Assembly: GCA_015233155.1 (NCBI GenBank)
Contig: JADFYG010000025.1
Span: forward strand, 17,750-81,749
Source: Candidatus Rifleibacteriota bacterium
GTDB taxonomy: Bacteria > Muiribacteriota > Ozemobacteria > Ozemobacterales > Ozemobacteraceae
Direction of reading: 5' to 3'
DNA: 64,000 bases
Part shown: piece after piece, positions 14,045 through 36,011 of the stretch
Numbering within the stretch: position 1 is the stretch's first letter
Layout: each line of letters opens with the position of its first letter
Translations under genes and position numbers: made by a program
Notes under the pieces: generated by a model
The model's database searches: none
Told to the model about the DNA's origin: nothing
Seen by the model: the letters and a program-made list of their open reading frames with translations, nothing else

Positions 14045-14803
14045 TCATTTCTTCACTCTGCCGAGCAGACGCAGCAATCCATCAAGAATTGTGATTGGAT
14101 GCGGCGGACAGCCTGGAATATACAAATTGACTGGAAGAATATCAGTTATACCGTTGTTCTGTTCCGGGTGATCCCGATACACTCCTCCGCTGATGGCGCA
14201 GGCTCCGACTGCAATGACGAGCTTAGGGGCGGGGACGGCAGCGTAGGTTTTCAGCGTGGCCAGTTTCATGTTCGTCGTGATGGGACCGGTTACAATGAGC
14301 CCATCGGCATGACGTGGCGACGCCACGATATTGATTCCAAATCGGCTGAGATCGAAAACGACGGTAGTGAGAACGTTGACATCGACTTCGCAGCCGTTGC
14401 ATCCGCCGGAACTGACCTGGCGGAGCTTTAACGATCGACCAAATATGCGCATCATTTCTGAATTGAGTTCTGCCGCCAGCTCTATTTCCCGTTGACCTAC
14501 GGTCAGGTGTTCCCGTCTTCGAACAGCAAGACGATGGTCATTTGTAAAATTCAGAGCTCCGCTGGGACAGACTTCGACGCAGGCATTACAGAAAATGCAC
14601 CTCCCGAGGTCGATGCGGATTCCATCCTGATTGGTTATTGCCTCGGTAGGACAAGCTTCTATACAAGCCGCACATTTCTGCCGACATAAATCCGCACGAA
14701 AAGCAGGCAGTCCCCGCAGGCGATCCGGAACGAGTGGCGCCGAATCCGGATAAGAAATCGTTCGATGTCCCTGTTGCCAGCGGGCTCTCAGAATGCTCAG
14801 CAT
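14045..14803 (-). CDS. Hydrogenase-4-like small subunit fused to a 2[4Fe-4S] ferredoxin domain
   Basis: This 252-residue protein joins two modules. Residues 25-95 are a HyfH/HycF-like ferredoxin with two clusters (CAACIEACPTEA and CIFCNACVEVCPSG). Residues 115-250 are the NuoB/HycG-type small subunit with all four ligands of the proximal N2-like cluster: SGGCNGCE, VGACAISGG and PGCPPHP. It would carry electrons from a soluble donor to the large subunit in the membrane arm complex. It is the last gene of the operon, 121 bases after the large-subunit gene. AGGTG precedes its ATG. The equivalent functions are separate genes (hyfH, hyfI) in E. coli. Confidence 0.88.
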   Translation of the reverse strand: MLSILRARWQQGHRTISYPDSAPLVPDRLRGLPAFRADLCRQKCAACIEACPTEAITNQDGIRIDLGRCIFCNACVEVCPSGALNFTNDHRLAVRRREHLTVGQREIELAAELNSEMMRIFGRSLKLRQVSSGGCNGCEVDVNVLTTVVFDLSRFGINIVASPRHADGLIVTGPITTNMKLATLKTYAAVPAPKLVIAVGACAISGGVYRDHPEQNNGITDILPVNLYIPGCPPHPITILDGLLRLLGRVKK

Positions 14804-14862
14804 TGTTCACCTGCTACGACTACGGAACACAGTTCCTTGAAATTACACAGTATCCGTGCGCA

Positions 14863-14891
14863 TTTACAGGCGATCCACCGGGGCGCCCCTA
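14863..14891. repeat. Copy of a dispersed GC-rich repeat
   Basis: The segment tttacaggcgatccaccg, then gggcgcccctatgcc, matches part of the repeat at 56321-56346 (tttacaggtggggctcgcccctac). It lies in the gap between the large and small hydrogenase-like subunit genes. It holds no gene. Confidence 0.4.
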
Positions 14892-14924
14892 TGCCAGGAA
14901 TGTGTTTTTTATGACAGATCTGGT

Positions 14925-16505
14925 TCATAGATCAAAACCGCAATAAGAGAGATTGAAACTCTTGTTACAGAGAGGAAAATCAGAAATTTCCTGATTGCGC
15001 ATGGCCATCTCCAAACCGATCCAGTTATGGAACGAGGGATCGACAATCTTGTACCGTGCAAATGCTCCGTGCGCATCGGTAACGATCGTGTGACATATCT
15101 CGCCCCGCCATCCTTCGACGAGCGATACGACGAGGGAATCCGGCTCGAGTGTTCGAGACAGATGCGCTGCCTCGGGTTCGATAATTTCTCCCGGCGGGAG
15201 TTGCTGCAGAATCTCCCGCAGGAACAACAGTGAGTTCTGAATCTCTGCCCAGCGTACGAACGCACGGCTTGCGACATCTCCGATTCGCCGCTCAAACGCG
15301 GGCAGTAAAATTTTGGAGGTCCGGTATGCTCCGCGGGGAAAATCCCGGCGTATGTCCTGCTCGCTTCCGCAGGCACGCGCAGCCGGGCCGACCAACCCGA
15401 GTTCAAGACAGACTTTCCGTGATACAACCCCGGTATCCTCAAATCGCGACATCACCGAAGGTGTTTCCCAGAGCACTTCGACAGCCACGTGAACATCTTT
15501 CGAGGCCCGGGAGAGTCCGTCAGTGAGTCTGGTCAGTCTCTCCGAATCGACGTCGAAGCCCACTCCGCCGGGACGGATAAAACTTCGTCCCAGCCTGCTT
15601 CCGCAGATCAAAGCAGTAAGATTCAGAAAGTCTCCGCGAATTCTTCCGCAGTATGAAGCCGTCGGAAGAAATCCGACGTCTCCCGCCAATGCGCCAAGAT
15701 CGCCTGTATGGTTTGCGAGTCGCTCGAGTTCAAGACCGACTGCCCGCAGAACTTTGGCTCGCCTGGAAACCTTGCATCCGCTCAGAGCCTCGATGGCCTG
15801 GCTGTATGCCAGCGTATGACCTACCGTTGTATCTCCCGCGAGAGTCTCCATATGATGCAATGTTCTTCTGTGAGGACCCCCAAGAATGGCTCTTTCGATA
15901 CCGCGATGCTGGTATCCGAGCGATATTTCGAGGTGGAATACATCCTCTCCATGGCATTGAAAACGGAAATGTCCAGGTTCTATAACCCCGGCATGTACTG
16001 GCCCGACAGCTACTTCGTGGATTCCCTCTCCTTCAATGCGAAAGAAATCGGTTACTCCCGGCAGACCAGCTGTGTTAGCTGATATAGGATACCCGTCGTT
16101 CGATCTGAGTGGAGGTTGGAAGCGGACAGGCGTTAATCGTGGATGTCCCTCGGGCAGGACGGACCATTGCTCCGCTATTTCCCGTTCAAACATATGGGCT
16201 TGCGGACAAGTGGGCGTGAGAGCTGGATAGCTTGTGCCTATATCAGTGGATATTACGGTCAATGTTTTTCCGGCGTCATTGGCAAGAATCGCTACCAGTC
16301 TAAGTGGGCGAATGAGCGTCGGTGGCGTCTTGCCGGAAGAGGGGGCCGATCCACTCGTTTCCATGACAAACAGTGAGCTGATTCTTGTACCGTGATGCCC
16401 CGTTTCGACGATATGTCTATGAAATTCATCGAAGGGAACACAAGGTACCCTGGAAAACGGGATAGCCTGGCTGTTTTCGATGGGACAGGCTTTCGCTAAA
16501 CTCAT
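14925..16505 (-). CDS. NiFe-hydrogenase-like large subunit lacking metal ligands (NuoCD/HyfG-like, Ehr type)
   Basis: This 526-residue protein has a NuoC-like N-terminal half (HMFEREIAEQWSVLPEGHPRL) and a NuoD/HycE-like C-terminal half (EISLGYQHRGIERA, LELERLANHTGDLGALAGDVGF). In true [NiFe] hydrogenases two CxxC motifs hold nickel and iron. Here the first site reads METLAGDTTVGHTLA and the second DPSFHNW, and no CxxC occurs anywhere. It therefore cannot bind a NiFe centre. The closest known concept is the energy-converting hydrogenase-related (Ehr) complexes, whose function is unknown. Its ATG overlaps the stop of the hyfF-like gene (ATGA), so translation is probably coupled. Confidence 0.9.
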   Translation of the reverse strand: MSLAKACPIENSQAIPFSRVPCVPFDEFHRHIVETGHHGTRISSLFVMETSGSAPSSGKTPPTLIRPLRLVAILANDAGKTLTVISTDIGTSYPALTPTCPQAHMFEREIAEQWSVLPEGHPRLTPVRFQPPLRSNDGYPISANTAGLPGVTDFFRIEGEGIHEVAVGPVHAGVIEPGHFRFQCHGEDVFHLEISLGYQHRGIERAILGGPHRRTLHHMETLAGDTTVGHTLAYSQAIEALSGCKVSRRAKVLRAVGLELERLANHTGDLGALAGDVGFLPTASYCGRIRGDFLNLTALICGSRLGRSFIRPGGVGFDVDSERLTRLTDGLSRASKDVHVAVEVLWETPSVMSRFEDTGVVSRKVCLELGLVGPAARACGSEQDIRRDFPRGAYRTSKILLPAFERRIGDVASRAFVRWAEIQNSLLFLREILQQLPPGEIIEPEAAHLSRTLEPDSLVVSLVEGWRGEICHTIVTDAHGAFARYKIVDPSFHNWIGLEMAMRNQEISDFPLCNKSFNLSYCGFDL

Positions 16506-18001
16506 GGGGCGTCTCCAATGTCATGGGTGTTGTGGATGACGGCAGCGGCCTGGCGCATTAAGGAATGCAGAGGCTGGGGCATCCAGAGTCCTAGGACTAA
16601 GAGAACGATCAGAGGGGCTGCGACGAGAAGGCGATCGAGCCAGTTGATGGACGCAGAGTCGACATATTCGCCGGGTTTTCCCCAGGCAATCGAGAGGGCG
16701 TGACGAAGAATGCCAACAAAAACTGTACTGATTCCCAACAGGAAAAGAATGACGACCCCGACCCTCTCCCCGTCGACGGCGGCTTTAAGAATCTGGAATT
16801 CGCTCATGAAGACGGAAAACGGAACAACGCCGATAAGCGCCAGAAGACTGGCAAAGATGCCCAGACCCCAGATCGGTGAAATCTTGACGCTGCCAGCCAT
16901 GCGATCCATTTTATAAGTGCCGTAGACTTGTCCAAGGCGGCCTGCGGCGAAAAATGAGAGGGTTTTACTCAGGGAGTGATTCAATGTGTGGAAGAGTGCA
17001 GCGTAGGTTCCTGCCCCGCCGATTCCGAAGCCAAGTGTTATGATTCCGATGTGCTCGACGCTGCAATAAGCCAGAAGTCGTTTGAGATCGTGCTGATGCA
17101 GGATGAATGTCGATGCCAGCAGAATGGAAAAAAGTCCGAATCCTGTCAGGAGTCGGAGAGACCACCCGGTGTTGCCCGTGGTCGCCTCGACGATCGGAAC
17201 GAAGCGCATGATGCAGTAGAGAGCGGCGTTAAGCATAAACCCTGAGAAAATCGCTGAAACCGGTGATGGAGCCTTGCTGTGAGCATCAGGAAGCCATGTA
17301 TGCATTGGGGCAAGACCGGCTTTTGTGCCGTAACCGACCAGCGCGAAGATGAATGCGGCCTTGATCAGGGCAGGTGCCAAAGATTTGGTGTTAGCCATGA
17401 GATTGGTCCAGAGCAGTGCCTGATTGGGATCGAGTGGAAGATCCTTGGCTGCAAGTCGAAGCAAAAGAGTTCCAAGAAAGGCGAAGGCGATGCCGACTGA
17501 ACAGATCAGCAGATATTTCCACATAGCTTCAAGGGATTCGCGGGTCATGTGGACACAGATAAGAAAAGAGGTCAGCAACGTCGTGGCTTCCATGCCCACC
17601 CACATAATGCCGAGATTGTTTGAAATGAGAACGAGTATCATGGCCGCCATAGCCGGAGTCCATAATCCGGAAAAGGTTCTTATCTGGCTGAGAGTGAGAT
17701 AACTGTGCTCTAGTTCCTCACCGAAATACCTGATCGAAAAGAGGGAACTGAGACCAAAGACCATCAGTAGAACCGCAAGGTGAAAAGCGGACAAGGGATC
17801 GAGAAAAAGCCAGTCAGAAAGACCAAAAATAGTTCCCTGAGTGATTGTTCTATGTATGGCTACGGCTCCGAATGCGGCAGTGATCATCACACCAGTCGCC
17901 GATATGAGTAGTGTCAGCCATTTGGAGGCAAAAAACTGAGACACCAATCCCGATACGAGAGGAATGATAACCAGCAAGGACAGGAGCAGTTCGTTACTCA
18001 C
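16502..18001 (-). CDS. hyfF: Hydrogenase-4 subunit F-like antiporter-type membrane subunit
   Basis: This 499-residue polytopic protein (about 14 helices) of the NuoL/M/N-Mrp family is closest in pattern to HyfF. It keeps the residues thought to move protons: the Glu in GIMWVGMEATTLLTS and the Lys in GYGTKAGLAPMHTWLPDAHSKAPSPVSA, plus a His/Lys-containing later helix (LLAYCSVEHIGI). The start is GTG at 18001, ten bases after the hyfE-like stop. It forms part of the membrane arm of the complex encoded by this operon. Confidence 0.9.
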   Translation of the reverse strand: MSNELLLSLLVIIPLVSGLVSQFFASKWLTLLISATGVMITAAFGAVAIHRTITQGTIFGLSDWLFLDPLSAFHLAVLLMVFGLSSLFSIRYFGEELEHSYLTLSQIRTFSGLWTPAMAAMILVLISNNLGIMWVGMEATTLLTSFLICVHMTRESLEAMWKYLLICSVGIAFAFLGTLLLRLAAKDLPLDPNQALLWTNLMANTKSLAPALIKAAFIFALVGYGTKAGLAPMHTWLPDAHSKAPSPVSAIFSGFMLNAALYCIMRFVPIVEATTGNTGWSLRLLTGFGLFSILLASTFILHQHDLKRLLAYCSVEHIGIITLGFGIGGAGTYAALFHTLNHSLSKTLSFFAAGRLGQVYGTYKMDRMAGSVKISPIWGLGIFASLLALIGVVPFSVFMSEFQILKAAVDGERVGVVILFLLGISTVFVGILRHALSIAWGKPGEYVDSASINWLDRLLVAAPLIVLLVLGLWMPQPLHSLMRQAAAVIHNTHDIGDAP

Positions 18002-18010
18002 GTGAGTTAA

Positions 18011-18646
18011 TCAACCTTTCAGGCGACTCAGTTCATGCGTGTCGATATGATGGAACGCGCGATTCATGTCTGTGATCAAAACCGTCATGATCAGCACTGC
18101 GAGAAACATGTCCAACAGGACTCCGCTTTCGACGAAGAAGGGGGCATAATAGAGAGTGCCGACACCTATCATGAAAGCTCCGTTTTCCATCACGAGGAAT
18201 CCAACAGCCTGCGAGATGGCCATTTTTCGGCTTATTATCAGAAACTGTCCGGTGAAAATAGAAAACAGGGTTCCGGGAACGAGCAGATGAGATGTATCTG
18301 TTCCGGGAATCGGGAGACGTGTTCCGAGCCAGAGAGAAACTACGAGAGCAACCATCCCGATCAGGAGCGAACCGATCGGACCAACATAAGGCTCGGTCTC
18401 TCTGCTTGTAACAACTATCTTTGTCGTATGGAGCAGAAAGGCGGGAAATACTAACCCCTTCAATAAAAGAGCGCCGAGCCCAATGATGAAGACATCGACG
18501 GAGAGATGGGCCTGGCGTGAGTATAATGCGAAAACTCCAAGGATGACTCCCTGGACGGCTGTCCAGGAGATGAGCGACTCGATACGACCGGTCGCCAGAA
18601 GCCGCACGTTGATCAGTATCACCAGGACGATCAGAAAATCAAACAT
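18011..18646 (-). CDS. hyfE: Hydrogenase-4 subunit E-like membrane protein
   Basis: This 211-residue protein has about six to seven helices (IVLVILINVRLLATG, LIGMVALVVSLWLGTRL and others). The C-terminal half resembles the NuoK-type unit found in HyfE (MAISQAVGFLVMENGAFMIGV), including its membrane Glu. The length matches HyfE (about 216). It lies between the hyfC-like and hyfF-like genes, exactly as in hyf and related operons. Confidence 0.88.
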   Translation of the reverse strand: MFDFLIVLVILINVRLLATGRIESLISWTAVQGVILGVFALYSRQAHLSVDVFIIGLGALLLKGLVFPAFLLHTTKIVVTSRETEPYVGPIGSLLIGMVALVVSLWLGTRLPIPGTDTSHLLVPGTLFSIFTGQFLIISRKMAISQAVGFLVMENGAFMIGVGTLYYAPFFVESGVLLDMFLAVLIMTVLITDMNRAFHHIDTHELSRLKG

Positions 18647-18666
18647 GAAGCATTACTCTCCAACGC

Positions 18667-19566
18667 TCATTGAATCAGGAATCCGATAACCGAGAAAATG
18701 CACGCCCCAACCAGGAGTTGTGGAACCTGCAAGAGTCGCAGTCGGGCCATGATTGAGCCGACGATCCCAATGATGACAGCCAAACAAATTAGTCCGAGAC
18801 ACATGGCGGAAATGTCGATTCCCGGGATTCCGGTGCGTACGGGAATGGCGATTCCAACTATGACGGAGCCGAGTATCCAGAGTTTGAGGGCTGCCGCGTA
18901 TTCGATGAATCCAAAGTCTACGCCGCTGTGATCAAGTACCATCACTTCATGGATCATAGTGAGTTCTAGATGAGTGGAAGGGTCATCAACCGGAATGCGT
19001 GAGTTCTCGGCAAGGAAGACCAGAAACAGTCCGACGACAACCAGAGCGAGAGAACCGACGTGAGTCTGCCAAAGGTTGATATTAATGCCATGGATGAGCT
19101 GATCAAGAGAGAGAGTTCCGGTCAGACGCGCTATTGTTGCCAGACCGAAGAAAAATGCGGGTTCAGCCAGAGCGGAAAAGGACATCTCGCGACTGGCTCC
19201 CATTCCTTCAAAAGCGCTTCCTGTATCCATCGCGGCAATGACGGTAAAGAATCTATGCAGGGACAACAGATAGATCAGAAAAATCAGATCGCCATGGAAG
19301 GAAACCATGGCGGGCATGTTTCCCAGCGGTAAAAAAATCAGACACAGAATGCCGATAGTCAACCCAATCGCTGGCCCGGCACGAAATACCCAGGTTGTCG
19401 TTTCACTGAAAACGGCTCCTTTGCGAAAGAGTCTGGCGAGATCATGATATGGCTGGATGACGGGAGGCCCCTGTCTTCCGGCAAAAAAGGCCTGGGTTTT
19501 CATGATAATCCCCTGCAAAAGCGGAGCAAAGAGCAGCGCCAACAGCGGATGGAGAAGCCTGATCAT
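18667..19566 (-). CDS. hyfC: Hydrogenase-4 subunit C / NuoH-like membrane subunit
   Basis: This 299-residue protein with eight helices belongs to the NuoH/HycD family. The conserved cytoplasmic loops are present: KTQAFFAGRQGPPVIQPYHDLARLFRKG near the N terminus and DDPSTHLELTMIHEVMVLD in the middle. The latter holds acidic residues that line the quinone-site/proton path in complex I relatives. It would anchor the soluble arm to the membrane. Start ATG at 19566 is two bases after the hyfB-like stop codon. Confidence 0.92.
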   Translation of the reverse strand: MIRLLHPLLALLFAPLLQGIIMKTQAFFAGRQGPPVIQPYHDLARLFRKGAVFSETTTWVFRAGPAIGLTIGILCLIFLPLGNMPAMVSFHGDLIFLIYLLSLHRFFTVIAAMDTGSAFEGMGASREMSFSALAEPAFFFGLATIARLTGTLSLDQLIHGININLWQTHVGSLALVVVGLFLVFLAENSRIPVDDPSTHLELTMIHEVMVLDHSGVDFGFIEYAAALKLWILGSVIVGIAIPVRTGIPGIDISAMCLGLICLAVIIGIVGSIMARLRLLQVPQLLVGACIFSVIGFLIQ

Positions 19567-19568
19567 GA

Positions 19569-21560
19569 CTACATCAGCCCTCCGATCAATAGAAATACCA
19601 GGGTAATTGTAATGTAGAAAACATAGGCTTGAACAACACCGTTTTGAATCCAGGAAAAACGGTGAGAAAGTGTTTCGATTCGAGTAAAAGCGGGCTTAAA
19701 CAGCTTTTCGATAAAAATGTTGGCGGAGTGTGACAGGAAACTGCCTTTCCGGGGAAAATACCCGTCGACTCCGCTCATTTGCGTTTCTGTACCAAGAACC
19801 GAGTTGAATAGTTCAACGAGGGGCTGTGAAAAGGAAGATCCAGTGTACTGCATCTTCACGGAAGGTTGAGCATATCCGCAGTCCCATGTGACGCTCGTCT
19901 CAACCTTTCGATTTGCAAGAAGCCCGACTCGCGTCATGACTATTGATCCAAGTATTGTGAAGAAGAGAAAACCACTGGCTGTGATTATGAAGAGAGGCGT
20001 TGCTACCTGGGCAAGTGAAGAGGTTACATCAGGTCCCGTCGAAAATTCGGGGAAGACCCCGAGCACCCGTTCGAATATTCCCAGGAGTGAGGGCGCGACG
20101 AACGAGATCACGGCACATAGCGAAGCAAGCACCATCATCGGTCCCCTCATCGACCACGCAACTTCCTGGGCCTCAGCAGCCCGAGCCTGGCGTGGATTTC
20201 CCAGGAAAATAATGCTGAACGCCTTTGCAAAGCAGCTGGCCGCAAGCCCGCCTATGAGAGAAAGACCAACGATGATGAATAAACCGGGAACTGCCAAAGA
20301 TAGAGATCCATTCAAAACTGCCGCAAATGCGGCAAAATATATGAAAAATTCACTGATAAACCCGTTGAAAGGCGGCAATCCGCAGATTGAAAGACAACCG
20401 ACGAGAAAGGTTGCCCCTGTATAGGGCATCCGCTTCAGAAGCCCTCCCATGCGATCCATGTCGCGGGTGCCTGTCTGTTCGAGAACTGCTCCTGATCCTA
20501 AAAAGAGCAATCCCTTGAACACTGCGTGATTCAATACGTGAAGAAGCCCTCCCGCGAAGCCCAATACGGCAACGTCCCGGTTGCCAAGGCTTAATCCGAG
20601 CAATCCCAGGCCCAGACCCATGGCGATGATTCCGATGTTTTCCACGCTGCAGTAGGCGAGGAGTTTCTTTATATCGTTCTGGGAAAGGGCAAAGAGTATG
20701 CCCAGAACGCCGGAAACCAGGCCAATTGTGATGAGAAGCCAGCCCCACCAGGGCGACGGATGTCCAAGAAAATAGAGTATCCTGACAATGCCGTAGATGC
20801 CGGTTTTGATCATTACGCCGGACATCAGTGCTGACACGTGGCTCGGCGCTGCCGGGTGAGCTTCCGGAAGCCATACGTGAAACGGAATAAATCCCGCTTT
20901 GGTGCCAAAGCCCAGGACGGCCAGCAGAAACAGGAAACCTTTGAAAGCCGGAGAAAGAAGCGCTGCGTGGGAAAATGCTGAGAAGTCGAGTGATCCGGTT
21001 TCCCGCTCAAGCAGTAAAAAGCATAGGATTATGAACACGGTCCCGAGGTGTGACGCCGTCAGGTAGATCCAGCCTGCTTGTCGATTGACCTCATTATCGC
21101 GATCGAGAACGACGAGAAAAAACGATGAAAGAACTGTCAATTCCCAGGCGATGAGGAAAAGCAGTCCGTTTGCGGCAAGCATGACAGTGACCATGCTTGC
21201 CACAAGGATGTGAAAGCTGCACCAGGCAGCGCCAAGGTTCGCCTCGTCAGTGGCATGGCGAAGATATGGCACTCCGAAAACTGCAGCCGCCATGCTCAGA
21301 CCCAATATCGGAACCAGGAAAAAAGCGGACAATGCATCGAGATTTAGAGCAAAAGAACAGAACGGCATCTGCCATGGGGCGACGAAGGTCATGCCCGGAT
21401 GCCCTGTAAGTACGCTTACACAGGGGACAAGTCCGATGCCATCGGCAACGACTGCAATAATCGCGGATAACTTCGCACGGGTCTGCGGCTTTGCTACAGG
21501 CACAATAGCGACAACTGCCGCAAACAACATCAATCCAAGCGATACCAAAAGCGGAAACAT
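19569..21560 (-). CDS. hyfB: Hydrogenase-4 subunit B-like antiporter-type membrane subunit
   Basis: This large polytopic NuoL-family protein (663 residues from the chosen start) keeps the functional Glu in LIAWELTVLSSFF, the Lys in GFGTKAGFIPFHVWLPEAHPAAPSHVSA, and the late-helix LLAYCSVENIGI. The ORF track begins at a TTG at 21644 with no good ribosome site. The ATG at 21560 has GGAGG ten bases upstream and begins directly with the first membrane helix, so I prefer it. First gene of the six-gene hydrogenase-like operon. The vapC stop lies just upstream, so read-through from vapBC is possible. Confidence 0.88.
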   Translation of the reverse strand: MFPLLVSLGLMLFAAVVAIVPVAKPQTRAKLSAIIAVVADGIGLVPCVSVLTGHPGMTFVAPWQMPFCSFALNLDALSAFFLVPILGLSMAAAVFGVPYLRHATDEANLGAAWCSFHILVASMVTVMLAANGLLFLIAWELTVLSSFFLVVLDRDNEVNRQAGWIYLTASHLGTVFIILCFLLLERETGSLDFSAFSHAALLSPAFKGFLFLLAVLGFGTKAGFIPFHVWLPEAHPAAPSHVSALMSGVMIKTGIYGIVRILYFLGHPSPWWGWLLITIGLVSGVLGILFALSQNDIKKLLAYCSVENIGIIAMGLGLGLLGLSLGNRDVAVLGFAGGLLHVLNHAVFKGLLFLGSGAVLEQTGTRDMDRMGGLLKRMPYTGATFLVGCLSICGLPPFNGFISEFFIYFAAFAAVLNGSLSLAVPGLFIIVGLSLIGGLAASCFAKAFSIIFLGNPRQARAAEAQEVAWSMRGPMMVLASLCAVISFVAPSLLGIFERVLGVFPEFSTGPDVTSSLAQVATPLFIITASGFLFFTILGSIVMTRVGLLANRKVETSVTWDCGYAQPSVKMQYTGSSFSQPLVELFNSVLGTETQMSGVDGYFPRKGSFLSHSANIFIEKLFKPAFTRIETLSHRFSWIQNGVVQAYVFYITITLVFLLIGGLM

Positions 21561-21645
21561 TACCAGAGCGCCTCCGAGTATTTCGGCGAAGAATATACGC
21601 CCATGTGACCCGAAGCGCAATAAAATTCTAGAGAATGTCTCCAAA

Positions 21646-22035
21646 TCACCAGAGGATCTTCACGCCATAGTGGGCGAAGACTCTGTCTGCCGATACAATA
21701 GTCAGCTTTTCCGTCATCGCTTGGGAGATCAACAGTCGATCAAACGGATCGCGATGATGAAAAGGCAGCTTTTCTATCTTTGCCGCATGGTGCAACTCGA
21801 TGTTCAACAGCGTAAAACCGTTGGCTGCCAGATGCTCCGAGACAAAACGCTCTATTGGCATGGCCAACTGTAACTTGCCAAGACTCGATTTTATCGCCAG
21901 CTCCCAGCAACTGGCCAAGCTCAGATAACACTCATTGTTTACATCAGCTATCGCTCGCCGGGCCGCCGCAGTAAGCTCTGGAGCGTCATCGACCCACCAG
22001 AGGAAAACATGTGTATCGAGGAGAAAACGCAACAT
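21646..22035 (-). CDS. vapC: VapC-type PIN-domain toxin
   Basis: This 129-residue PIN-domain ribonuclease has acidic residues in their normal places: Asp in FLLDTHVFLWW, Glu in SCWELAIKSSLGKL, and Asp residues in HHRDPFDRLLISQA with a final VSADRVF. The start ATG overlaps the antitoxin stop (TGATG), which couples translation. The ORF-track start at 22044 is an upstream TTG. VapC toxins cleave specific RNAs; the target is not predictable here. Confidence 0.9.
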   Translation of the reverse strand: MLRFLLDTHVFLWWVDDAPELTAAARRAIADVNNECYLSLASCWELAIKSSLGKLQLAMPIERFVSEHLAANGFTLLNIELHHAAKIEKLPFHHRDPFDRLLISQAMTEKLTIVSADRVFAHYGVKILW

Positions 22036-22262
22036 CAGACACAATCCTTGAAATCCGCCGGTAGTGCATCAAAATCGGGTGCTATGGATAGAATCTGACC
22101 CTTTGCTGAACCGGGACGCCGCTTTCTTATTATCTTGTTCACCGGCAGCAGCCTGAGGAGAGGCTTGTTATCCCTTGCTATAACAATTTCTTCTCCAAGC
22201 AAAGCCAGTTTGACAAGCTCAGAGAAATGGGACTTAGCTTCAGCGATATTGTATTGCTTCAT
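22035..22262 (-). CDS. vapB: Phd/YefM-type antitoxin of the VapBC pair
   Basis: This 75-residue protein begins with the Phd/YefM dimerisation and DNA-binding fold (MKQYNIAEAKSHFSELVKLA and GEEIVIARDNKPLLRLLPV). The C-terminal tail should wrap the toxin. It overlaps vapC by one base. It probably represses its own promoter by binding the perfect palindrome just upstream. Confidence 0.9.
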   Translation of the reverse strand: MKQYNIAEAKSHFSELVKLALLGEEIVIARDNKPLLRLLPVNKIIRKRRPGSAKGQILSIAPDFDALPADFKDCV

Positions 22263-25791: not shown

Positions 25792-26673
25792 ATGAACTTC
25801 GCCTGGCTCGATACACATCTCGAGGCTCGCAGAATACCGCTCGCGGTCTGCATGCCCGAGGAAGCCGAGATAGTGTCCGCTGCAAAGGAAGCCTCGGAAC
25901 TCGGCTACGTCGATTGTCTGTTCGTCGGAAACCGCGAAAAAATGCAGGCAGCCATTGCATTGGCCGCTCCCGGTTTCGCTCCTGAAATGATAGAAACGTC
26001 AAGTGATGAGGAAGCCGCCGCCGCGTCTGTAAGGCTGGTTCGCGAAGGACGGGCAAAAGCCCTCATGAAGGGCGTCATTCCTACGCCAACGCTTCTCAAG
26101 GCCATCTTGAACAATGAAACCGGCATCAAGAAATCGTCCGTGCTTTCTCATGTGCTCATATTCGAATATCAGGGCCGATTTCGTTTTTTAACGGATGGCG
26201 GCATGATTCCACATCCCACCCTGGCCGAGAAACAAGAAATACTGGCTAACGCCGTTTTTCTGGCCCAGCGTCTTGGCTTCGAAAAGCCCCGCGTTGCGGT
26301 ACTTGCGGCCATCGAGACGGTGAATCCTAAAATGGCTTGCACGAGCGATGCCGCTATTCTATCCAAGATGGGTGAGCGCAAACAGTTCGGCTCATGTATC
26401 GTGGATGGGCCGCTCGCACTGGATAACGCCATTTCACTCGAAGCGGCTCATCATAAAGGCCTGTTCAATGAGGTGGTAGGCGAAGCGGAAATACTTATTT
26501 GTCCTGATATCGACTGCGGGAACATTCTCGGAAAATCCATCATTTATTTCAGCAAGTGCCCGGCCGGCGGGATGATCGTCGGCGCGCAGGCCCCAGTGAT
26601 CCTGCTTTCACGCTCAGACACCAAGGAAGTGCGGATAAACTCCATAAAACTCGCACTTGCGGCCGGATGTTGA
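25792..26673 (+). CDS. ptb: Phosphate butyryltransferase
   Basis: This 293-residue protein is of the phosphate acetyl/butyryltransferase family. Recognisable pieces are LMKGVIPTPTLLKAILN, SHVLIFEY, DGGMIPHPTLAEKQEI and the closing PVILLSRSDTKEVRINSIKLA. It exchanges CoA for phosphate on butyryl-CoA, feeding Buk. The upstream AAGGAAAGG is 13 or more bases from the ATG. A five-codon ORF (ATG ATT CAC TTA TCA TGA) begins right after it and overlaps the ptb start as ATGA, so ptb may be translated by coupling to this mini-ORF. The 187-base gap from buk may hold its own promoter. Confidence 0.92.
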   Translation: MNFAWLDTHLEARRIPLAVCMPEEAEIVSAAKEASELGYVDCLFVGNREKMQAAIALAAPGFAPEMIETSSDEEAAAASVRLVREGRAKALMKGVIPTPTLLKAILNNETGIKKSSVLSHVLIFEYQGRFRFLTDGGMIPHPTLAEKQEILANAVFLAQRLGFEKPRVAVLAAIETVNPKMACTSDAAILSKMGERKQFGSCIVDGPLALDNAISLEAAHHKGLFNEVVGEAEILICPDIDCGNILGKSIIYFSKCPAGGMIVGAQAPVILLSRSDTKEVRINSIKLALAAGC

Positions 26674-27926
26674 ATAAATCTCGCGAGCGGGGGCCGGCAT
26701 TGCTGACCTTTGACGAGGCATTGGAACGCGTTATCTCCGAAGCCTCTCACCACAAGCTTTCTTCGGAGGGTGTGTCTCTCGATGCCGCATGCGGAAGAGT
26801 TCTTGCAGCCGCCCTGGCGGCTCCGGGAGACCAGCCTGCATGCGATAATTCCGCAATGGATGGATATTGCATCCGGCATTCAGATGCGGCGTCTGCAAGG
26901 CCCGAAGCACCGATCACGTTGCCTGTCGCGGGTGAAGCCATGGCAGGGCGTCCGCTGGCTGCACTTCCCGACATGAACGCTGCATACATTGCCACCGGCG
27001 GCATGCTTCCAGAAAACGCTGATACCGTTGTCAAGATCGAAGACGTCTCCGTCAGCGCTGACGGCAAGTCGGTGACCTTTTCCTCCATCCCACCCGTCGG
27101 AACCTATATTCGCCGCCAGGGAAAAGATGTGCGAGCCGGTGATATTGTACTTCCGGCCGGTGAATCTTTATCACCTTTCGCCATCGGAACTGTAGCTTCG
27201 CTGGGTCGGATGGTCATTCCCGTAACACGACAGCCGCGCATCGCGCTCATGACATCCGGGGACGAAATTGTGATGCCCTTTGACGAGCCAAAGCCGTGGC
27301 AGGTCCGCAACGCAAACTCGTATGCGCTCGCGTCTCTGATTCGCGAATCGGGAGGAGTACCAGTCGATTTCGGCATCGTGCGCGATTGCCCGAAACGGGC
27401 CATGGCTGTTCTTCGCGATGCTTTCTCGACCTGCGATCTTATTGTGACATGCGGCGGCGTATCCATGGGAAAAAAAGACCCTTTCATCGCGGCGTTTCGC
27501 GAACTGGGAGTAGATATCCGTGTTCACGGCGTCGCCATCAGGCCCGGCAAACCTTTCTTTTTCGGCCTGTTTGAGGGGAAGCCACTGTTCGGCCTGCCGG
27601 GAAACCAGGCGAGCTGCGTCGTGACTTTTGAAATATTTGCGCGACCATTCATACGCCGCGTTCTTGGCGATCGCTGCCCTGACAGGCTTTTAATGCGCCT
27701 CTCCCCTACCCTGCCCCTTGTCAATCATACGGGCCGCGATCACTTCATGCGCGCACGCCTGACCGTCGATCCCGCGAACGATGGCCGACCTTGTGCTGAC
27801 GTTTTTCAGCAGCAGGATTCCCACCTTCTCACGTCTTTGATCGGCGCCAATCTGCTGGTTCGACACCCAGGCTCGCTTGAATCTGCCGGTACCGATACCT
27901 TGCTTGAGTGCCGCCTTACTTCCTGA
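26667..27926 (+). CDS. moeA: Molybdopterin molybdotransferase MoeA
   Basis: This 419-residue MoeA inserts molybdate into adenylylated molybdopterin. Family motifs are present: DNSAMDGYCIR, PVAGEAMAGRPL, TSGDEI, TCGGVSMGKKD (MPT-binding) and GLPGNQAS. The start is taken as the ATG at 26667, which overlaps the ptb stop region. The ORF-track start lies inside ptb. Its last about 35 codons form one copy of a 140 bp direct repeat found again at 32900, so the present C terminus may derive from inserted DNA. Confidence 0.92.
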   Translation: MLNKSRERGPALLTFDEALERVISEASHHKLSSEGVSLDAACGRVLAAALAAPGDQPACDNSAMDGYCIRHSDAASARPEAPITLPVAGEAMAGRPLAALPDMNAAYIATGGMLPENADTVVKIEDVSVSADGKSVTFSSIPPVGTYIRRQGKDVRAGDIVLPAGESLSPFAIGTVASLGRMVIPVTRQPRIALMTSGDEIVMPFDEPKPWQVRNANSYALASLIRESGGVPVDFGIVRDCPKRAMAVLRDAFSTCDLIVTCGGVSMGKKDPFIAAFRELGVDIRVHGVAIRPGKPFFFGLFEGKPLFGLPGNQASCVVTFEIFARPFIRRVLGDRCPDRLLMRLSPTLPLVNHTGRDHFMRARLTVDPANDGRPCADVFQQQDSHLLTSLIGANLLVRHPGSLESAGTDTLLECRLTS

Positions 27927-35024: not shown

Positions 35025-36011
35025 TCAGCCACCGATGTCAGAAAGCGATTGACAGCCGGCACGCCTGAACTCCGGACAGCTTTTTCCAATGGCGAGCTTT
35101 TCTTCGGCCAGGCGACGAATGACACTTCCCACTTCTTTTTTCGAGAGATTGTGCACGTCGATCCCGTGGTCTGCGTCAAGGCATGGAAGCAAGGTTCCGG
35201 ATGCAGTCAGACGCAGTCGATTGCATCTGCGACAGAATGGATTCGTGCGCGAGCTGATGAAGCCAATCCGACCTGAACCTCCATTGATCGAAAACATCTG
35301 TGCAGGCCCACCAGCGGCTGATTCCTGGGCCGGCGTGAGTGAGAATCGACTGGCAAGACGTTCCATCAGATATTCCTGAGATACAAATTCTTTGTCAGAT
35401 TTACTCTGGCGTATAGGCGATGTTGGCTGTGCGATGGAGAACGGCATCCGCTCTATGAACCGCACATGGATGGATTTATCCATTGCAAGCGCGGCGAAAT
35501 CGAACAACTCGTCGTCATTCTCTCCTGGAATCAACACCACATTGATCTTCACAGGACTGAGCCCGGCTTCGATTGCGGAATCGATGCCGCGAAGAACGGC
35601 GCCGATTTCGCCGCCCCGCGTGAAAGCACGAAATCGCTCCGGCCGGAGAGAATCGAGACTGACATTTATGCGCTTCAGGCCTGCATTGGCAAGTTCGTAT
35701 GCCCGGTCGGCAAGCAATATTCCATTCGTGGTAAGTGCCAGATCAATAACTCCGGGAATTCGAGCCAATTCTGCGATAAAAGATGTCAGGCCACGCCGCA
35801 CTAATGGTTCTCCGCCGGTTACACGAACGCGAAAAACGCCTTCAGCTACGGCGGCGCGAACAATCGTAAGCATCTCTTCATATCGCATCACCTGCGAATG
35901 CTTGAGCTTCGGTACGCCTTCCGCTGGCATGCAGTAGACGCAACGAAGATTGCATCGATCCGTCACCGAAAGTCGGAGATATTCGAAAACCGCTCTTGTA
36001 TTAGTTTCCAT
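35025..36011 (-). CDS. moaA: GTP 3',8-cyclase MoaA
   Basis: This 328-residue radical SAM enzyme starts molybdopterin synthesis. It has the N-terminal CNLRCVYC cluster motif, VRVTGGEPLVRRGL, and the C-terminal second-cluster motif NPFCRRCNRLRLTASGTLLPC. Length is as expected. It lies 8 kb from moeA. Without the inserted cargo the two would be about 3 kb apart, so an ancestral molybdenum-cofactor locus is plausible. Confidence 0.94.
   Translation of the reverse strand: METNTRAVFEYLRLSVTDRCNLRCVYCMPAEGVPKLKHSQVMRYEEMLTIVRAAVAEGVFRVRVTGGEPLVRRGLTSFIAELARIPGVIDLALTTNGILLADRAYELANAGLKRINVSLDSLRPERFRAFTRGGEIGAVLRGIDSAIEAGLSPVKINVVLIPGENDDELFDFAALAMDKSIHVRFIERMPFSIAQPTSPIRQSKSDKEFVSQEYLMERLASRFSLTPAQESAAGGPAQMFSINGGSGRIGFISSRTNPFCRRCNRLRLTASGTLLPCLDADHGIDVHNLSKKEVGSVIRRLAEEKLAIGKSCPEFRRAGCQSLSDIGG

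Follow-up and report, generated by a model that had tools for sequence, protein, structure and literature searches.

The window analysed here is a 64,000-nucleotide stretch of a Riflebacteria genome (Candidatus Rifleibacteriota, family Ozemobacteraceae; 6.3 Mb, 84% complete). Six open, co-directional genes on its minus strand, between positions 14045 and 21560, encode a membrane complex of the hydrogenase-4 type (Table 1). Reading down from 21560, HyfB-, HyfC/NuoH-, HyfE- and HyfF-like subunits are followed by the large and then the small subunit. The genes are separated by tiny gaps or overlap throughout, except for 121 bases ahead of the last, small-subunit gene. The HyfB-like gene starts with an ATG at 21560 preceded by GGAGG; an in-frame TTG upstream at 21644 is a less likely start. 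Profile matches (PRK06521, PRK11492 and Pfam NADHdh) bear out the coordinates, the gene order and the Hyf/Hyc-type membrane subunits described in an earlier note, which took the operon for an energy-converting-hydrogenase-related (Ehr) complex and not a hydrogenase. Ehr complexes have no [NiFe] ligands and are suspected of coupling redox chemistry to charge translocation (PMC6349859). Marreiros et al. 2013 (as cited in PMC12361115) examined related complexes; the name itself goes back to work on Geobacter (Coppi, as cited in PMC7894505 and PMC13194489). Ehr is present in about half of Nitrospirales genomes, and its function was still termed unknown in 2025 (PMC12342949).

The large subunit has no CxxC motif anywhere in its chain. 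Aligned with E. coli HycE and HyfG, it has residues other than cysteine at each of the four [NiFe] ligand positions, namely Ala, Thr, Ser and Gly. The earlier note had assigned the two altered sites to AGDTTVGH and DPSFHNW. The first assignment, the absence of CxxC and the loss of all four ligands stand, but the second assignment does not. DPSFHNW is ruled out by the alignment and lies about 30 residues before the true site, NLSYCGFDL (DPCYSCTDR in HycE), which forms the very C-terminal end of the protein. There, Ser520 stands at the position of HycE Cys531, the terminal Ni ligand, and Gly523 at that of Cys534; a different cysteine, Cys522, occupies the position of HycE Ser533. The conclusion that this is Ehr is unchanged, since all four ligands are lost anyway. 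A frame, assembly or sequencing error masking the CxxC motifs is ruled out because 61 homologues have the same pattern, with a single cysteine retained as CGD[TS] in a few of them (L016, L017, L040 and L051). The NuoC-like N-terminal part is retained and the C-terminal extension is absent. The chain stops at the point where mature HycE is cleaved, and therefore has no tail for a maturation protease. By sequence, it is closest in the PDB to E. coli HycE and Pyrococcus MbhL. The AlphaFold model, made without a partner subunit, has a mean predicted local distance difference test (pLDDT) score of 83.7, falling below 50 in the final 11 residues, and its top fold match in the PDB is again HycE.

Table 1. 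Genes of the Ehr operon and motifs of its large subunit (window positions)
Feature	Position	Strand	Length	Basis
EhrS, NuoB/HycG-like small subunit with N-terminally fused 2x[4Fe-4S] ferredoxin domain	14045..14803	-	252 residues	Pfam Oxidored_q6 + Fer4
EhrL, HycE/HyfG-like large subunit, without [NiFe] ligands	14925..16505	-	526 residues	Complex1_49kDa
HyfF-like antiporter-type subunit	16502..18001	-	499 residues	NCBIfam hydrogenase 4 subunit F is top match, under cut-off
HyfE-like membrane subunit	18011..18646	-	211 residues	PRK11492 hydrogenase 4 membrane subunit, 6.6e-20
HyfC/HycD/NuoH-like subunit, altered acidic motif DDPSTHLELTMIHE	18667..19566	-	299 residues	Pfam NADHdh
HyfB-like antiporter-type subunit	19569..21560	-		PRK06521 hydrogenase 4 subunit B, 1e-189
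AGDTTVGH, counterpart of HycE CGICGFAH, contains Asp225	15816..15839	-	residues 223-230	alignment
DPSFHNW, aligns with HycE AATYANW, not a ligand site	15021..15041	-	residues 489-495	alignment
SFNLSYCGFDL, counterpart of HycE SLDPCYSCTDR	14928..14960	-	residues 516-526	alignment

Conservation was counted over 62 Ehr-type large subunits, the window protein and its 61 homologues. Asp225, Trp466, Asp489, Cys513 and Ser520 are invariant in all 62, and the same five positions differ from hydrogenases, from NuoD and from the sister proteins described below. The proton route described in the structure of E. coli formate hydrogenlyase involves HycE Glu193, Arg478, His284, Glu437 and Arg395 (PMC9474812). 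Their counterparts, Glu176, Arg467, His266, Glu421 and Arg377, are kept in 61–62 of the 62 sequences. HycE Asp529 in the canopy, termed strictly conserved (PMC9474812), corresponds to Asn518 in 60 sequences. Judged from these sequences, the former active site is remodelled and strongly conserved rather than decaying, because the five Ehr-specific residues are invariant.

The iron-sulfur ligands of the small subunit and the Glu and Lys residues of the antiporter-like subunits are kept, as the earlier note had claimed. All 12 cysteine ligands of the small subunit are present and conserved in 37–40 of 40 sequences. The proximal-cluster motif CNGC, with all four ligands, has the spacing seen in hydrogenases, whereas complex I has two adjacent cysteines (CC). 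The top PDB matches are MbhJ and HycG, with HycF for the N-terminal ferredoxin part. Ion-path residues are present in the HyfB-like subunit (Glu140, Lys221, Lys252 and Glu404) and in the HyfF-like subunit (Glu138, Lys227 and Glu401); in the latter Asn258 occupies the position of NuoM Lys265, as it does in E. coli HyfF. In the NuoH-like subunit, Ser197 and His199 replace NuoH Glu216 and Glu218. This altered motif, DDPxTHLELTMIHE, is nearly invariant among 36 sequences.

A phylogeny of group 4 large subunits, built with the [NiFe] motif columns removed, places the window protein inside a Cys-less Ehr clade of 41 rows (99/97) that consists of homologues and metagenome-assembled genomes. The sister is a 5-row clade with three or four ligand cysteines, and the union of both has 100/99. 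HycE/HyfG come next, then Mbh/Ech-like proteins, with NuoD outside. The Ehr clade thus stands beside, and not inside, the Cys-bearing hydrogenases, which supports the earlier note's view of the complex. Because the tree is rooted on NuoD, we infer that Ehr most likely descends from a Hyf-like ancestor and that the [NiFe] site was lost on the way. One member of the sister clade belongs to a second Hyf-like complex in the window's own genome (C106; G000, L009:8566-16465). Its large subunit has three [NiFe] cysteines and Asp at the position of the fourth (ERQCGTC, KSFELCYADVDR; CGTC and CYAD), and a like protein in G001 (L084) carries the same pattern. Three others from the same phylum, L081, L082 and L083 (G027, G033 and G031), have all four [NiFe] cysteines plus one extra (CGVC, CYCSC, KSFNLCYCSCDK) and share an Ehr-like KSFNL tail; they are possibly the intact sister of Ehr. 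Long branches join C106 and L081-083 and their union is unsure, and leaving out either group in turn does not change the placement of Ehr. These sister proteins provide a near-continuous series for the loss of the metal site from a hydrogenase core. The window's genome also encodes further [NiFe]-hydrogenase-like large subunits (C141:135817-137214, C22:95999-97375, C98:33522-34817 and C64:1-888), the last containing DPCFSCTDR.

Homologues, 45–61% identical, lie on contigs titled Planctomycetota, Deltaproteobacteria, Elusimicrobia, Verrucomicrobia, Lentisphaerae, Acidobacteria, Omnitrophota and others. Thirteen Ehr-bearing Riflebacteria genomes are at least 90% complete (G002-G005, G007, G010, G011, G013, G016, G017, G023, G026 and G030). 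None of these 13 has MqnA/D, or MenD above its cut-off, and HypD was not found in 11 of them. With no known menaquinone pathway in any and no HypD in most, quinone and [NiFe] maturation look dispensable for Ehr in Riflebacteria on gene content. HypD was also not found in the window's own genome, where at 84% completeness the absence may be an assembly gap.

Among the loci compared, no extra subunit that could handle a substrate is conserved beside the Ehr operons. The only recurrent neighbour is a regulator gene fusing an excisionase-type HTH_17 domain to a phosphotransferase system (PTS) EIIA domain, which lies directly upstream of the HyfB-like gene at 23 of the 31 loci with enough upstream sequence, across phyla (for example L015:4234-4920, L035:847-1518 and G005:C53:110843-111499). 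Several Riflebacteria have it in front of their second Ehr operons as well, whereas the window operon and two close copies from Riflebacteria, L014 and L047, lack it. Directly upstream of the window operon is a PIN-domain (VapC-type) gene (21646-22044), of which the relatives have no conserved copy. Molybdenum cofactor genes (MoeA and MoaA-like; 26556-27926 and 35025-36011) lie elsewhere in the window, unlinked to the operon.

The same complex, 36–41% identical and likewise without [NiFe] ligands, occurs on plasmids of aerobes (Variovorax, Cupriavidus, Rhizobium, Azospirillum, Rhodococcus, Methylocalor and Allomeiothermus), and several of these copies have no ferredoxin domain. Two small subunits have lost every proximal-cluster cysteine, with replacements that differ from each other: GNTGLDD/GNEA/PGSP in Allomeiothermus silvanus pMESIL01 (L116:11296-12168, WP_013159565.1) and SNGSD/GTDA/PGAP in Mycobacterium branderi pJCM12687 (L127:8848-9642). 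Part of their ferredoxin ligands is also gone. Both operons have six genes and retain the antiporter Glu/Lys/Glu, and that of Allomeiothermus is duplicated by an inverted duplication of the plasmid. These two complexes are apparently redox-free assemblies resembling complex I, whose ion-conducting part may operate independently of electron transfer. This reading does not extend to the window protein, because its cluster ligands are complete.

We consider it probable that the window operon encodes an Ehr complex acting as a ferredoxin-fed redox ion pump with an acceptor other than hydrogen; electron flow through the complex would thus power ion pumping with no hydrogen formed. A reduced ferredoxin-like donor, already suggested in the earlier note from the fused domain, would hand electrons to that domain, from which they would pass to the proximal cluster and reduce a small acceptor in the former [NiFe] cavity. 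There, Asp225, Ser520 and Cys513 would stand in for the metal site, and Glu176, Arg467, His266, Glu421 and Arg377 would keep the old proton route. By way of the altered NuoH-like channel, the reduction would drive ions across the two antiporter-like subunits, so that translocation is predicted to be coupled to electron transfer. Donor, acceptor and direction of flow are all predictions of this scheme, and quinone is probably not an obligate acceptor in the Riflebacteria lineage. Several observations weigh against the proposal. The cited literature reports no measured donor, acceptor or pumping activity for any Ehr. Cys513 is Ile or Thr in some of the relatives in aerobes, so its invariance is limited to the window clade, and the aerobic copies that have no ferredoxin domain mean that a ferredoxin donor is not universal in the wider family. 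Futalosine-pathway genes are present in the window's own genome (C115). UbiA-superfamily genes occur in most of the Ehr-bearing Riflebacteria genomes, so an unrecognised quinone is possible.

The complex may instead be a ferredoxin:quinone oxidoreductase with a pocket for menaquinone reduction like that of complex I or NDH-1, a reading to which we give a modest chance. Its ancestry and fold are common with those of NuoD, and genes of a menaquinone pathway are present in the window's own genome and in over half of the genomes from other phyla that bear Ehr. However, the counterparts of the quinone residues His38 and Tyr87 of Nqo4 (PMC7684303) are Glu176, the retained hydrogenase Glu, and Gly224. 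The Asn in place of the strictly conserved canopy Asp (PMC9474812), the CNGC motif and the 13 near-complete genomes without MqnA/D and MenD also argue against quinone.

Machines of the complex I type are reversible, and an ion gradient could push electrons uphill from a milder donor to reduced ferredoxin. Most of these Riflebacteria genomes have Rnf, so that a further ferredoxin-linked pump could be used in one direction or the other. The operon and its conserved neighbourhood contain no donor-side gene, and we regard such reverse operation as rather unlikely. A reductase of sulfane sulfur (polysulfide) like MBS is a poorer candidate still. MBS, too, is related to group 4, has lost [NiFe] and receives its electrons from ferredoxin, but its proximal cluster has three Cys ligands only and two [NiFe] cysteines are kept (PMC7684303), while the window complex has four cluster ligands and no [NiFe] cysteine. 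A dead, decaying hydrogenase, as implied by a 2026 paper that calls Geobacter Ehr nonfunctional for its missing [NiFe] ligands (PMC13194489), is hardly credible given the Ehr-specific invariants across many phyla, the open frames, the complete operons and the expression of Geobacter Ehr proteins, which varies with the electron donor (PMC7894505).

Returning to the ferredoxin-fed pump, a more speculative scenario, which we hold only tentatively, would connect it with the aerobic branches. A hydrogenase core would have become a new metal-free site, with Asp225, Ser520 and Cys513 around the retained Glu176, and neither protons nor quinone would be the acceptor reduced there. The aerobic branches would then have shed the redox chain stepwise, first the ferredoxin domain and later all proximal-cluster ligands, the latter on separate occasions in Allomeiothermus and in Mycobacterium branderi. 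If true, this shedding would leave complex I-like assemblies in which ions move with no electron transfer involved. Ehr is widespread in many phyla, and the replacement residues, the missing menaquinone and HypD genes and the Cys-bearing sister proteins limit the search for its reaction to particular mutants and acceptors.

By its sequence the window complex is Ehr: it retains none of the four ligands, its Hyf/Ech-like subunits are co-encoded, and its large subunit falls in a Cys-less clade apart from NuoD. The two CxxC pairs of an active group 4 [NiFe] hydrogenase are absent. The same Hyf/Ech-like subunit set and Cys-less, group 4-related large subunit characterize Ehr of Geobacter sulfurreducens (GSU0739-0745), Nitrospira, Margulisbacteria/Saganbacteria and the Candidate Phyla Radiation, with Geobacter and Nitrospira compared by description (PMC7894505, PMC10284858, PMC12342949, PMC6349859, PMC7304191); the window operon differs from many other Ehr operons in having no preceding HTH-EIIA gene. 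Ehr as such is already known, and the five Ehr-specific invariants and the absence of menaquinone genes and HypD in the Riflebacteria carriers are new here. With E. coli hydrogenase 4 and formate hydrogenlyase (HyfA-J, HycA-I) the window operon shares homologues of HyfB, C, E, F, G and I in the same order. Unlike them, it has no HyfA/HycB, HyfD, separate HyfH, maturation protease or formate dehydrogenase; its ferredoxin domain is fused to the small subunit, and the [NiFe] ligands and the cleaved C-terminal tail are missing. Respiratory complex I (NuoB/CD/H/I/L/M) has in common with it the fold, the proton-path Arg, His and Glu and the antiporter-like subunits, but the window complex has neither the quinone His/Tyr nor the NADH module, its cluster ligand spacing differs and the NuoH acidic motif is altered. 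MBS/Mbx of Pyrococcus furiosus resembles the window complex in being a group 4 relative that has given up H2 production and takes electrons from ferredoxin, the latter presumably so in the window case. MBS keeps two of the four [NiFe] cysteines and a three-Cys proximal cluster, whereas the window complex keeps none of the four and retains the hydrogenase-type cluster motif.

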